A model generated the notes under the pieces. It made no database searches and was not told where the DNA came from. It worked only from the letters and a program-made list of their open reading frames with translations. Positions 10,675 to 15,994 of a stretch of 64,000 nt of DNA are shown here, in pieces. Location of the stretch: the NCBI RefSeq assembly GCF_000747525.1, contig NZ_CP009278.1, positions 124,001-188,000 on the forward strand, read 5' to 3'. Every line of letters starts with the position of its first letter. Position 1 is the stretch's first letter. Both the position numbers and the translations under genes were made by a program. The stretch comes from Sphingobacterium sp. ML3W. GTDB taxonomy: Bacteria > Bacteroidota > Bacteroidia > Sphingobacteriales > Sphingobacteriaceae.

Positions 10675-10989
10675 ATGGTACAAGAATTAGAAAACGATAA
10701 TTTACAAGAAATTGTAAACAGCAATGATATAGTAATGGTTCAATATGCGGCTACTTGGTGTGGTAACTGTAAAATTATGAAACCAAAATTCAAAAAATTG
10801 GCAACAGAAAATGAAAATGTAACTTTCGTAATCGCTGATGCCGAGAAATTTCCAGAGTCTAGAAAATTAGCAAACGTAAATAACTTACCTACTTTTGCGG
10901 CTTTCAAAAATGGTAAATTAGTAAATCAAGTACAAACAAATAAATTTGACGCCTTAATCGACTTATTCAATGAAGCTTCCAGTAATTAA
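10675..10989 (+). CDS. Thioredoxin family protein
   Basis: A 104-residue thioredoxin-fold protein without a signal peptide. The active site is ATWCGNCKIM (Cys29 and Cys32, CGNC rather than the usual CGPC) and the cis-proline loop is NNLPTFAAF. The ATG at 10675 is chosen over an in-frame start 13 codons upstream that would lie in the terminator region. Its position between a peroxiredoxin and a DUF6952 gene suggests that it reduces the peroxiredoxin. It overlaps the next gene by 20 bases, indicating tight co-expression. Confidence 0.9.
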   Translation: MVQELENDNLQEIVNSNDIVMVQYAATWCGNCKIMKPKFKKLATENENVTFVIADAEKFPESRKLANVNNLPTFAAFKNGKLVNQVQTNKFDALIDLFNEASSN

Positions 10990-11224
10990 ACATATCACAG
11001 AATTTATCGAGCAAAACGATGTTGACTATGTATTAGAAACTATTGAGACATTAGAATCTTTAGTTGAAGCGCCTTTAAAAGATGAAGAACTTGATGTAAT
11101 AGGTGAGTTAATCTCTAATCTTTATGGTGCAGTTGAGGTCGATAAATTGGTCAAAGAAGGAAATAGCAAGAAAGACGCAATGAACATGTTTATGAAGCGT
11201 GTGCTAGGTTCAATCGATAAATAA
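10970..11224 (+). CDS. DUF6952-like small protein
   Basis: An 84-residue acidic, mostly helical protein with no cysteines and no membrane segment. I place it in the DUF6952 family, small proteins found beside thioredoxin and peroxiredoxin genes in Bacteroidota; this rests on recognition, not a search. Its ATG lies inside the last codons of the thioredoxin gene (20-base overlap), which implies translational coupling. The conserved-looking block is VIGELISNLYGAVEVDKLV. The function is unknown; a structural or adaptor role in the peroxide-reduction unit is a guess from context. Confidence 0.7.
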   Translation: MKLPVIKHITEFIEQNDVDYVLETIETLESLVEAPLKDEELDVIGELISNLYGAVEVDKLVKEGNSKKDAMNMFMKRVLGSIDK

Positions 11225-11355: not shown

Positions 11356-11487
11356 TATCTTTAGCGGTAATAAAGGTTACCACTTAAAGAATTTGCTATC
11401 CCCAAAAACAAACTAAAAGGATAGATTTTAAGAAAATATTTTAATTGTTAGAAACGGAAATTCTCCCCACGGAATTTCCGTTTTTTA
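11356..11487 (+). ncRNA. Possible small RNA or terminated leader
   Basis: TATCTTTA at 11356-11363 is one base off TAnnTTTG. A clear terminator (AAACGGAAATTC at 11452-11463, GAATTTCCGTTT at 11472-11483, then a T-rich tail) follows about 90 bases later with no open frame between. A transcript of about 115 bases would result. Alternatively, the hairpin ends the 3' UTR of the peroxiredoxin-thioredoxin unit. No minus-33 element is evident, so confidence is low. Confidence 0.3.
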
Positions 11488-11517: not shown

Positions 11518-13974
11518 ATGCTAAAATCAATTCTATTTACCAACGTACTAATATGCTGGGTATTTCTTCATCATGCCCATGCTCAAAAAGCAACAACAAG
11601 TTGGAATAGTGCGCTAATCAAATCCAAGTTAGAAAAATTAGAAGTCTTAGGTTCGGTCTTGTATTTTGCGGCCCATCCAGATGATGAAAACACCAAATTA
11701 ATCGCATGGCTAGCCCAAGAAAAACACCTCAGGACGGGTTATCTATCGCTCACTAGGGGCGATGGTGGACAAAACTTAATTGGTACAGAGCAGGGAATTG
11801 AACTTGGCCTCATCCGAACACAAGAGCTTCTAGCTGCACGAAAAATCGATCTGGGCGAGCAATTTTTTACCTCAGCATTTGATTTTGGGTTTTCTAAGAC
11901 TTCTGAAGAAACATTTAATTTTTGGGATAAAGAGCAGGTTTTGAGAGAAGCTGTTTGGATCATTAGAAAATTCCGTCCCGATGTAATCATTACGCGATTT
12001 CCGCCAGATTCAAGAGGTGGACATGGCCATCATCAAGCTTCGGCTATCCTAGCCAAGGAAGCATTTCTTGCAGCGGCAGACCCAACAAGATTTCCAGAAC
12101 AACTCAAGCTTGTAAAACCTTGGCAAGCGACTCGGTTGCTATGGAACACCTATAATTTCAGTAGCCTGAATACTATAAACGATAGTCAGATGCAAATTGA
12201 AATTGGGCAATATAACCCCTTGATTGGCAAATCTTACGGCGAAATATCAGCAGAAAGTCGCTCCTCGCACAAAAGTCAAGGATTCGGAAGTGCTGCTCAA
12301 GTTGGAAAAGCGCAAGAATATTTTGAATTTGTAGCCGGTAAACCTGCTAAAAAAGATATTTTCGAAGATATAGACCAAACTTGGTCAAGAATAACGGATG
12401 GGAGAACTATCAGTCAAAAAATAAAAGAGATTAATGCGGATTATCGGGTCGACTCTCCCGATAAATCAATTCCTAAGCTGTTCGAAGTTTTGGAATTGGT
12501 CGATAAAATTGACAATCCATATTGGAAAGAACAAAAAACAAATGAGATCAAAGACTTAATACTCGCTTGTGCTGGTATTAGAATCGAAAGTATAGCAGAT
12601 TCTCCGCATTACTCCAATGGCGACGCTATAAAAGTAACAAATGAGATTATTATCAGGACAGATGCTACTCCAATACAACTTACTGCAATAAATGGACAGA
12701 ACATTAGCCAGTCTTTGGAAAGTAATACCTTGATGAGTTTTCAAAGTACCTTTCCAGCGGTGTCTACCACGCAGCCCTATTGGTTAAATGCGCCTAGTAG
12801 CATCGGTCGTTTCCACTTCTCTGATTTTAACAAAACTGGAGAACCTGAAAATCCAGATTATCCATCGGTAACATTTGGTTTAATTATACATGGAAGGGCC
12901 TTTAGCTATACCAAACCGATACAATATAAATATACCGATCCTGTTAGGGGTGAAATCTATAATCCGATTGCCATTTCTCCCGCAATAACCGCATCGTTAG
13001 ATCAATATGTAGTGCTAAGCCAAAACAATAAAGCACAACAAATAACGCTAACTTTTACAAATCAAAGCAATACAAAAGATAGAACGGAAACTGTCAAGCC
13101 AATTATCAATGGGAATTGGCAAATTTCACCAGGTGATCTAGAATTAAAATTTACTGAAAGCACAGCACAAATAAGTAAGGAAATCACCATACAAGCGCTG
13201 TCAAAAGAGACCCGATTAGACACTCTATCATTTATTTTTGGTAGCACTAATGAAAAGGTCAAAATCAACCGTGAGATTCATTATGAGCATATTCCAACCA
13301 TTACCTGGTTTCCAGATTTAACAATAAAAGTAAGCAACCTACAATTGGATGTACCGATTAAAAAAATTGGTTACTTAGTAGGAGCTGGAGACCTTATCCC
13401 TGAATCGCTAAAGGCAATAGGGATATCGGTAGACTTATTGACCGAAGCGCAAATCCTGCATCAAAATCTATCACAATATGACGCAATCATTGTAGGAATA
13501 AGAGCTTTCAATGTATTGAAAGCTATGCAAAAGATAAGCCCCAAGATTCTTGAATATGTTAAAAATGGAGGTACGGTCTTGGAGCAGTACAATGTGAACA
13601 ATAAATTGCTGTCGAATCAATTTGGTCCCTATCCGTTCAGAATCGGGAATAGTAGGGTGACGGATGAATTGGCAGAAGTACATTTTGACGAACAAAACCC
13701 TGTTTTCAATTACCCTAATAAGATTGTGAAAGCAGATTTTGATCACTGGGTACAGGAAAGAGGTTTATATTTTGCCGAAGATATCGATAGCCATTACCAA
13801 ACACCGATAAAGTTACAAGACAAAGATGAACCGCTACACAAGGGATCGCTCTTGATTACTAACTATGGAAGTGGTAGATTTGTCTATACATCATTGTCAT
13901 TTTTCAGACAATTGCCTGCTGGAGTTCCCGGAGCTTACAGATTATTTGTAAATTTGTTATCAAAATCAAAATAA
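11518..13974 (+). CDS. Secreted PIG-L family N-deacetylase with Ig-like and amidotransferase-like domains
   Basis: An 818-residue protein with a signal peptide ending near HHAHAQ. The PIG-L/LmbE domain (about residues 35-260) has the metal-binding AHPDDENTKL and the second motif GGHGHHQAS. LmbE-like enzymes remove acetyl groups from N-acetylglucosamine-type sugars. The middle (about 360-600) is beta-rich and Ig-like. The last 200 residues (KKIGYLVGAGDLIPESLKAIG onward, with YDAIIVGIRAF and a terminal GRFVYTSLSFFRQL) resemble the class I glutamine-amidotransferase-like/ThuA fold without an obvious catalytic cysteine. A symporter gene lies shortly downstream, so it may process a substrate that is then imported. 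The exact substrate is unknown. Confidence 0.87.
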   Translation: MLKSILFTNVLICWVFLHHAHAQKATTSWNSALIKSKLEKLEVLGSVLYFAAHPDDENTKLIAWLAQEKHLRTGYLSLTRGDGGQNLIGTEQGIELGLIRTQELLAARKIDLGEQFFTSAFDFGFSKTSEETFNFWDKEQVLREAVWIIRKFRPDVIITRFPPDSRGGHGHHQASAILAKEAFLAAADPTRFPEQLKLVKPWQATRLLWNTYNFSSLNTINDSQMQIEIGQYNPLIGKSYGEISAESRSSHKSQGFGSAAQVGKAQEYFEFVAGKPAKKDIFEDIDQTWSRITDGRTISQKIKEINADYRVDSPDKSIPKLFEVLELVDKIDNPYWKEQKTNEIKDLILACAGIRIESIADSPHYSNGDAIKVTNEIIIRTDATPIQLTAINGQNISQSLESNTLMSFQSTFPAVSTTQPYWLNAPSSIGRFHFSDFNKTGEPENPDYPSVTFGLIIHGRAFSYTKPIQYKYTDPVRGEIYNPIAISPAITASLDQYVVLSQNNKAQQITLTFTNQSNTKDRTETVKPIINGNWQISPGDLELKFTESTAQISKEITIQALSKETRLDTLSFIFGSTNEKVKINREIHYEHIPTITWFPDLTIKVSNLQLDVPIKKIGYLVGAGDLIPESLKAIGISVDLLTEAQILHQNLSQYDAIIVGIRAFNVLKAMQKISPKILEYVKNGGTVLEQYNVNNKLLSNQFGPYPFRIGNSRVTDELAEVHFDEQNPVFNYPNKIVKADFDHWVQERGLYFAEDIDSHYQTPIKLQDKDEPLHKGSLLITNYGSGRFVYTSLSFFRQLPAGVPGAYRLFVNLLSKSK

Positions 13975-13987
13975 AACATACAATACA

Positions 13988-14188
13988 ATGGAAAATCAAG
14001 TTGAAAACAACACATGTGCACCAAGTCCAAAAGGATTAATCGTATTAATCGGTGTCATATTTGGAGCTTTAATTTCATTCACTGCAAACGAAACTTTTTT
14101 AAGTATTATAGGTGGGGCTGTAGTTGGTTTAGTTATTGCCATTCTCTTCAATAACTTCTTTTATGCTCAAAGACCAAGTGACAGATAG
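13988..14188 (+). CDS. Small two-helix membrane protein
   Basis: A 66-residue protein. A polar N-terminus (MENQVENNTCAPSPK) is followed by two hydrophobic helices (about residues 18-35 and 40-58, containing the small-residue pattern IGGAVVGLVIAILF) and a short basic tail. It starts 13 bases after the PIG-L stop and overlaps the next small gene by 26 bases, so it belongs to the same operon as the deacetylase and the symporter. I do not recognise a family. A helper or stabilising role for the symporter is possible but only inferred from position. Confidence 0.65.
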   Translation: MENQVENNTCAPSPKGLIVLIGVIFGALISFTANETFLSIIGGAVVGLVIAILFNNFFYAQRPSDR

Positions 14189-14297
14189 GAGCAATACGTT
14201 TATATCGACCAAATGGAAACGCTATTATAGCCTAGTTGCTTGTAGTCTTTTTCTGGTCATACTATTACTCTATCTATTCACGAAATATTTTTCATGA
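14163..14297 (+). CDS. 44-residue single-pass membrane protein
   Basis: A short frame (ATG at 14163, TGA at 14295-14297) encodes a polar N-terminus ending in KWKRYY, then one hydrophobic helix (SLVACSLFLVILLLYLF) and a short KYFS tail. The positive charges before the helix predict an N-in orientation. The start lies inside the preceding 66-residue gene, and the stop overlaps the symporter start as ATGA. This double overlap is the arrangement of translationally coupled genes and fills exactly the gap between its neighbours, the best evidence that it is real. No family is recognised. Confidence 0.55.
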   Translation: MLKDQVTDRSNTFISTKWKRYYSLVACSLFLVILLLYLFTKYFS

Positions 14298-15994
14298 GTA
14301 CGATTGATTGGATAGTTCTCATTCTGACACTTTTGACCATCGTGCTGTATGGCATGTACAAGAGTCGAGGAATCAAAAATATTGATGGGTATCTTCTTGG
14401 CAACCAATCTTTGCCCTGGTACCACGTTGGACTTTCGGTGATGGCCACTCAGGCGAGCGCCATCACCTTTCTTTCTGCTCCTGGGCTTGCATATAGTTCG
14501 GGAATGAGCTTTGTCCAATTTTACTTCGGTCTACCATTGGCCATGATTGTGCTTTGTATCACTTTCGTACCTATCTTTCATAAACTTCGCGTATTTACGG
14601 CTTACGAATTCTTAGAAAAACGCTTTGATATTCGAACCCGAGGGTTGACTGCTTTGCTATTTCTGATTCAGCGTGGTATTTCAACAGGTATCAGTATTTT
14701 TGCTCCTGCACTTATTATCGCAAGCATTTTGCACGTTAATTTATCATTAACAACAATATTGATTGGAAGTATTGTCGTGATGTATACGACATATGGTGGA
14801 ACAAAAGCGGTTTCCCATACACAAATGCTTCAAATGAGCATCATATTTGGAGCGCTATTGGTGGCTGGTATACTTGTCGTAAAACTATTGCCAAGCGATA
14901 TTGGTCTATTTAAAGCGCTTCATATTGCCGGAAAATCGGGTAAGACCAATGCCATAGATTTTACATTTGATCTGAATAATCAATATACTGTGTGGACAGG
15001 GATCATTGGTGGTTTTTTCTTACAACTTTCGTATTTCGGAACAGATCAAAGCCAGGTAGGTCGTTACTTAACAGGCTCATCGATAAAAGAAAGTAGAATT
15101 GGCTTATTAATGAATGGTCTGCTGAAAATACCCATGCAGTTCTGCATCTTGCTTATCGGAGTGCTTGTTTTTGTCTATTATCAATACCATACGCCTCCCA
15201 TATTCTTTAACCAAGTAGAGATAGATAAGTTAAAGCAAAGTGAATACAGCAGCTCATATCGTGCTCTAGAAGAAAAACAAGTTGCAATAAGTAATGAAAA
15301 AAGGGTTACTATCGATCGTTTGACAACAGCTATTGACCGGGATGACCAGTCTGCAATAGATGAAGCAAGAACAGCACTCCAACAGTCAAATGAAAACTTT
15401 GATGATATTCGCACTGAGGTAGTCGATTTAATCAAGAAAAACAATCCTACTGCAGAGACCAACGATAATAACTATATATTCCTATCCTTTGTCACCAACA
15501 CCTTCCCCAAGGGCTTAATTGGCTTGCTTATCGCAGTCATCTTTCTTGCCTCCATGGGTTCAACAGCCAGTGCAATCAATTCATTGGCGTCCACCAGTAC
15601 TGTTGACATTTACAAAAGATTTATCAATAAACAATCTACAGAACATCAGGATCTCTTTTGGTCCCGTATGTTTACTTTGTTTTGGGGAGTATTCTCCATT
15701 GCTGTGGCGCTATATGCCAGCAAGCTCGGCAATCTTCTCGAAGCGGTCAATATATTGGGCTCTTTATTTTATGGTACTATACTCGGTATTTTTATTGTTG
15801 CTTTTTACATGAAAAGGGTAGGAGGAAGAGCCGTATTTTATGCGGCAATTCTATCTGAAGTCATCGTTTTTACCATTTGGAAGATGGATGTTATTGCCTT
15901 TTTATGGTTGAATGTGATTGGATGTCTCTCGGTGATGCTCTTGGCATACGTAGCCGCAACAATGGACCGTAAAAAAAGCTACCCAATCGGATAG
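14294..15994 (+). CDS. Sodium:solute symporter (SSS family)
   Basis: A 566-residue inner-membrane transporter of the SSS/SLC5 family with about 13 helices. It has the N-terminal DGYLLGNQSLPWYHVGLSVMATQASAITFLSAPG segment typical of the family and a later SMGSTASAINSLASTSTVDIYKRF sodium-site region. A polar, coiled-coil-like insert of about 95 residues (roughly 303-397) interrupts the helices; such inserts occur in Bacteroidota SSS proteins. Its start overlaps the 44-residue gene, which links it to the secreted PIG-L deacetylase and suggests uptake of a deacetylated sugar or related sodium-coupled substrate. The substrate is not deducible from sequence. Confidence 0.87.
   Translation: MSTIDWIVLILTLLTIVLYGMYKSRGIKNIDGYLLGNQSLPWYHVGLSVMATQASAITFLSAPGLAYSSGMSFVQFYFGLPLAMIVLCITFVPIFHKLRVFTAYEFLEKRFDIRTRGLTALLFLIQRGISTGISIFAPALIIASILHVNLSLTTILIGSIVVMYTTYGGTKAVSHTQMLQMSIIFGALLVAGILVVKLLPSDIGLFKALHIAGKSGKTNAIDFTFDLNNQYTVWTGIIGGFFLQLSYFGTDQSQVGRYLTGSSIKESRIGLLMNGLLKIPMQFCILLIGVLVFVYYQYHTPPIFFNQVEIDKLKQSEYSSSYRALEEKQVAISNEKRVTIDRLTTAIDRDDQSAIDEARTALQQSNENFDDIRTEVVDLIKKNNPTAETNDNNYIFLSFVTNTFPKGLIGLLIAVIFLASMGSTASAINSLASTSTVDIYKRFINKQSTEHQDLFWSRMFTLFWGVFSIAVALYASKLGNLLEAVNILGSLFYGTILGIFIVAFYMKRVGGRAVFYAAILSEVIVFTIWKMDVIAFLWLNVIGCLSVMLLAYVAATMDRKKSYPIG

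Follow-up and report, generated by a model that had tools for sequence, protein, structure and literature searches.

A short conserved gene beside an SSS-family sodium symporter gene of Sphingobacterium, and the proposed role of its single-helix product as an accessory subunit

A short open reading frame (the small ORF) ends on the start codon of an SSS-family sodium symporter gene in the window, by which we mean the whole 64,000-nucleotide stretch of Sphingobacterium sp. ML3W DNA that was analysed. This ORF is a real coding gene under purifying selection. It is genetically linked to one SSS subfamily, co-occurs with it in a near-strict manner and persists in genomes where the linkage has been lost. 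By analogy with known systems we propose, with a probability of about 0.7, that the product of the small ORF is a dedicated single-pass accessory subunit of this subfamily, which would act on its symporter in the manner of MAP17 on SGLT2. The features of the locus to which we refer are as follows.

11450..11485, + strand: terminator-like hairpin of 15 pairs just before the PIG-L gene (consensus scan only)
11518..13974, + strand: first gene of the apparent cluster, for an 818-aa PIG-L-family protein whose N-terminus is signal-like (PF02585, E 4e-16 at 48-182)
13988..14188, + strand: lineage-restricted protein of 66 aa, two hydrophobic segments, present at 71 of 80 Sphingobacteriaceae loci
14178..14297, + strand: small ORF, proposed single-pass SSS accessory subunit (conserved start, purifying selection, phylum-wide profile matches beside SSS genes, predicted helix 6-38)
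14178..14188, + strand: 11-nt overlap GTGACAGATAG, with the small-ORF start and the stop of the 66-aa gene (sequence, related loci)
14294..14297, + strand: ATGA, with the small-ORF stop and the symporter start (sequence; kept in 79 of 80 Sphingobacteriaceae loci)
14294..15994, + strand: SSS-family sodium symporter, 566 aa (PF00474, E 6e-37; TIGR00813, 225 bits against a cut-off of 184; fold Z 25-35)

The small ORF, its product and its neighbours

The earlier note had read the small ORF as a 44-codon frame starting at the ATG at 14163. The sequence bears out most of that description, since the frame is present and open from 14163 to 14297, shares 26 bases with the 66-aa gene (13988-14188) and joins the symporter gene (14294-15994) as ATGA. 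The start assigned to it is probably wrong: not even the closest relatives (L062 and L063) keep ATG 14163, and it was dropped for this lack of conservation. The N-terminus shared by the relatives is (M/V)-T/I-D-K/R, which corresponds to GTG 14178 in the window and to ATG or GTG elsewhere. Because this is the conserved start, the product is probably 39 aa long rather than the 44 aa obtained from ATG 14163. The segment GTGACAGATAG is read in two frames, as S-D-R-stop at the end of the 66-aa gene and as M-T-D-R at the beginning of the small ORF. The 66-aa gene ends in H-D-R or S-D-R at nearly all Sphingobacterium and Parapedobacter loci, depending on whether the small ORF starts with ATG or GTG, and this C-terminus is conserved because the 11-nt overlap carries the small-ORF start. 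A shorter form of 30 aa, without the N-terminal part, is found in the S. multivorum group.

Neither loss of the frame nor a broken overlap, the two outcomes which the earlier note had named as contrary to its proposal, was what we found, as both the frame and the ATGA junction are kept in 79 of the 80 Sphingobacteriaceae loci. The exception is L088, where the ORF ends 76 nt upstream. In the phylum sample the ATGA junction is present in about a third of cases; many lineages have no overlap between the small ORF and the SSS gene, and the gaps there reach up to 88 nt.

The last 31 codons of the frame are open in all 80 related sequences, whereas the other two frames contain stops in 77 and 72 of the 80. 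By a counting method the in-frame dN/dS is 0.10 for pairs 70-85% identical and 0.16 for pairs 85-97% identical, as against 1.2-1.6 in the other two frames. A blind rule (at least 25 codons, one hydrophobic segment, and a stop at -100 to +8 of the start of the downstream gene), for which the chance rate was estimated on the window and the related loci, selected an ORF before 90 of 100 SSS orthologues, to which the profile described below adds two more; for other genes the figures were 1 of 46 (window) and 25 of 366 (related loci). The shortness of the ORF, together with the fact that no Pfam or NCBIfam model covers its product, could be taken to mean that this is a chance open frame without a product, however the in-frame selection and the conservation across the phylum (profile matches with E down to 1e-17), as well as the near-absence of the small ORF from genomes that have no SSS orthologue, make the probability of such a frame negligible, and we regard it as ruled out.

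The prediction of a single helix after a basic N-terminus agrees with the sequence, in which the 39-aa form has one strong hydrophobic stretch, at residues 17-35 (mean KD 2.3), and with the AlphaFold model, which has a single helix at 6-38. Across 59 members Y17 is invariant and W13 is more than 90% conserved, and in the wide alignment PP before the helix and FT after it are conserved more loosely. Lysine and arginine are commoner on the N side in 56 of the 59 members (mean 2.9 versus 0.6), which by the positive-inside rule suggests that the N-terminus lies inside. SSS proteins have their N-terminus outside. On this topology the small protein would end on the side on which the symporter begins, like one additional helix of the symporter that has come away from it. 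Among solved chains none matches the small protein convincingly.

The downstream gene belongs to the SSS family by both its models and its fold, which matches NIS, SiaT and SGLT at Z 25-35; the nearest solved relatives are SiaT, SMVT, NIS and SGLT, of which SiaT ranks first by sequence among PDB entries. The AlphaFold model of the symporter is moderate (pLDDT 67). In a confident part of it, residues about 300-390, a helical-hairpin insert of ~85 residues is predicted between two membrane helices; helix counting would put the insert on the non-cytoplasmic side, and there it could come into contact with the secreted PIG-L protein. The genome measures 5.33 Mb, the SSS protein of S. faecium, the closest relative that carries a name, is 91% identical to that of the window, and plasmid records held no SSS relative at E 1e-60. 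At three Pedobacter-type loci the symporter gene is followed, on its own strand, by a gene that by eye appears sialidase-like (at L127 it lies 1687-2740 from the SSS start), a hint that the substrates may be amino sugars or sialic acid.

On the upstream side the PIG-L gene is present at all 80 related loci. Further upstream is the gene of a DUF6952 protein (10970-11224, E 3e-22), separated from the cluster by the strong terminator-like hairpin at 11450-11485, which judged from the sequence is likely to be the upstream boundary of the cluster. No Rfam family was found near the locus. Eight Pedobacter-type loci lack the 66-aa protein, and it was not found at L088; outside Sphingobacteriaceae it has weak relatives in some genomes of one family (f25), and the search of most other families detected none. 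The 66-aa protein is not a constant partner.

Association with one symporter subfamily across the phylum

In 296 genomes of the phylum we searched with a profile made from 36 Sphingobacteriaceae members only (A1). Each of the 30 matches fetched, of which one is the window itself, was immediately followed by an SSS orthologue, with an identity of roughly 40-70%. SSS orthologues were called at E 1e-80, giving 114 positive and 182 negative genomes, and 3 kb around 100 of the orthologues was read for neighbouring ORFs. A wider profile of 59 members (A3), which is less independent than A1 since it was partly built from the genomes searched, matched in 99 of the 114 SSS-positive genomes and in 1 of the 182 SSS-negative ones (Fisher p ~5e-61, uncorrected for relatedness). 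In 94 of those 99 genomes the small ORF is adjacent to the SSS gene and on the same strand, and the pattern of co-occurrence recurs in many family-level groups.

Among the 15 SSS-positive genomes without an A3 match, 11 have a diverged one-helix ORF in place and four have none. These four (G273, G224, G247 and G255) show neither a small ORF near the SSS gene nor a profile match, and in the last three the PIG-L and SSS genes overlap directly as ATGA; the small ORF is therefore not universally needed. The sole SSS-negative genome with a small ORF, G140 (L307, G140:C19:28500-34500), retains the PIG-L gene, an intact small ORF and, of the SSS gene, only the start and the C-terminal end, so that its symporter seems, from the sequence, to have suffered an internal deletion. 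At one Sphingobacterium locus (L277, G018:C1 about 4690019-4691753) the SSS gene is in three frames with a stop beside an intact small ORF, which could reflect a pseudogene or a sequencing error. Another genome carries two copies of the small ORF and SSS pair (G405:C1:21445-23162 and 3845700-3847474), the second SSS copy having three stops.

The genome of the window contains a single copy of the small ORF and 11 SSS matches, which indicates that the small ORF is specific to one SSS subfamily. A concern is that a conserved operon order, taken by itself, is also compatible with two proteins acting separately in one pathway. The small protein could, for example, be a single-pass protein that does not bind the symporter and instead anchors the periplasmic PIG-L protein or a cytoplasmic enzyme whose substrate is the imported compound. 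The PIG-L gene adjoins the small ORF in many families, and the W and Y conserved at the cytoplasmic edge could be a binding site for another protein. In four families (f30, f43, f57 and f67), however, the PIG-L gene is not adjacent and the small ORF stays with the SSS gene, so that the partner is the symporter rather than the PIG-L protein; moreover, the part of the small protein outside the membrane amounts to only a few residues, too little for holding a periplasmic enzyme. We consider a role of this kind, without binding to the symporter, unlikely.

In five genomes from two families the small ORF is intact and lies 14-108 kb from the SSS gene, the largest distance being that in G386 (108 kb). 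The SSS genes of G139, G151, G165 and G211, which belong to one genus, have no adjacent ORF, and the ORF is found 14-15 kb off, behind a WbqC-like gene. In G286, a linked genome of the same genus, the order is WbqC-like gene, small ORF, SSS gene. At L280, L281, L272 and L273, which lie in four genomes of one genus, there is ~15 kb between the small ORF and the SSS gene with the WbqC-like gene still upstream; the separation at these loci is likely to have arisen by one insertion or rearrangement event. The unlinked copies of four genomes have pS of 0.04-0.33 and pN of 0-0.048, which is a trend based on few substitutions.

These unlinked copies bear on the possibility that the small ORF is a translational-coupling leader, for which the arrival of ribosomes at the symporter start matters and the peptide does not. 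There is a precedent in the cbrX gene of Pseudomonas putida, which encodes 58 aa and overlaps cbrA, the gene of a protein with an SSS-type membrane domain; the two are translationally coupled and the identity of the CbrX peptide was reported as unimportant (PMC6591292). The likeness is that a small ORF of membrane type runs into the start of a gene whose product has an SSS-type domain, and the frequency of ATGA in Sphingobacteriaceae and in the wider sample speaks for a leader. CbrX differs in having two predicted helices, where the small protein of the window has one in 39 aa, and it is known in Pseudomonas and Azotobacter. Overlap or abutment of the cbrX type is present in Sphingobacteriaceae and absent in many other families, and the peptide sequence is conserved phylum-wide, in contrast to the reported indifference to the CbrX peptide. 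Since intact copies are kept far from the SSS gene, with synonymous changes dominating in four of the five genomes, and since gaps before the SSS gene reach the length given above, it is the peptide itself that appears to be retained and not a mere leader. On this evolutionary evidence, which includes purifying selection on the unlinked copies, the small protein does not appear to be a dispensable peptide of the CbrX type, and a role as a coupling leader is quite unlikely.

The proposed accessory subunit

We envisage that the small protein resides in the inner membrane with its N-terminus in the cytoplasm and its C-terminus at the outer face. It would be made just before the symporter from the same mRNA, in many lineages with coupling through ATGA, and would insert beside the symporter and pack against it as one extra helix. 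Contact may be made by the conserved W-x3-Y motif at the cytoplasmic edge together with one face of the helix, and the effect would be to stabilise or activate the transporter, as MAP17 does for SGLT2. Mean-field DCA of the small protein against the SSS protein (139 pairs, Neff 65) was given no weight, since several of its top pairs fall in the C-terminal helix of the SSS protein, which is variable, at positions which are also prominent within the SSS protein itself; no natural fusion of the helix to an SSS protein, which would be a sign of contact, was seen among the loci read.

A regulator of the MgtS/MntS kind, which inhibits its transporter or controls its turnover, could be of the same size, as other transporters are known to have regulators of 30-50 aa with one helix (PMC10710835). 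The small protein is, however, encoded directly before its target and is often coupled to it in translation, so that constant co-production fits better than conditional inhibition, and we hold such a regulator to be very unlikely in comparison with a constant structural subunit.

The earlier note had proposed that the small protein, with the neighbouring 66-aa protein, could form an accessory part of the symporter. As regards the symporter as partner of the small protein this is strongly supported by the tracking of one subfamily across the phylum and by the overlap that has been kept. The case for the 66-aa protein as a second subunit is weaker, because it is missing from eight Pedobacter-type loci and was undetected in most other families, while the 39-aa protein stays. 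It is an even call whether a broader statement holds, namely that throughout Bacteroidota one SSS subfamily consists of two-component transporters, with a single helix of 30-50 residues as the second subunit, a bacterial counterpart of MAP17-SGLT2, with a few lineages having lost the need for it.

This partner of a transporter recurs across a phylum and has escaped the family models probably because it has fewer than 50 codons. If it is a subunit, then expression, substrate assays and structures of the symporter made without the small protein may fail or mislead, as with SGLT2 in the absence of MAP17. For the effect of a one-helix subunit on an SSS transporter, ready test cases exist in the unlinked copies and in the small number of natural losses.

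Comparison with known systems

The literature searched contains no mention of the small gene, and a review of the SSS family has none of the small-subunit terms in its text (PMC7918813). Several known systems resemble the arrangement in part.

Small membrane genes lie directly beside SSS genes in the case of DUF485/YjcH with ActP and of DUF4212, the small subunit VC_2705. A DUF3311 gene is likewise found beside MctP (PMC9100948). All three share with the small ORF the position next to an SSS gene; they are two-helix proteins with models of 61-88 positions, in contrast to the one helix and 39-41 positions of the small protein. DUF485/YjcH (PF04341) had no match in the whole genome, the locus of the window included, with positive controls in 4 genomes, and the same was true of DUF4212 (PF13937), with positive controls in 2 genomes. 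The sole match of DUF3311 (PF11755) was below threshold and elsewhere in the genome, inside a 554-aa frame. By these models the small protein is a member of none of the three families.

KdpF is a single helix of 30-50 aa that acts on a transporter. AcrZ and MgtS are further single helices of this length with such an action (PMC10710835). The small protein is like all three in size and in its single helix, but they serve other transporter families and have no significant sequence match to it; one member of its family touched the KdpF model at E 0.046, which is not significant.

The closest likeness in kind is to MAP17 (PDZK1IP1), a small one-helix membrane protein whose partners, human SGLT2 and SGLT1, are sodium symporters of SLC5 and thus of the same SSS superfamily. 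In SGLT2 the single helix of MAP17 packs against TM13, and stabilisation of the fixed scaffold is the role suggested for it (PMC10803289). MAP17 differs in being eukaryotic, in being encoded far from its transporter and in having parts outside the membrane on both sides, and no sequence relation between the two was found. The small protein nevertheless shares two features of a MAP17-like class. It has one transmembrane helix, as judged by its hydrophobic segment and predicted helix, and it has an SSS-fold partner with which it is co-inherited, the co-occurrence being uncorrected for relatedness.
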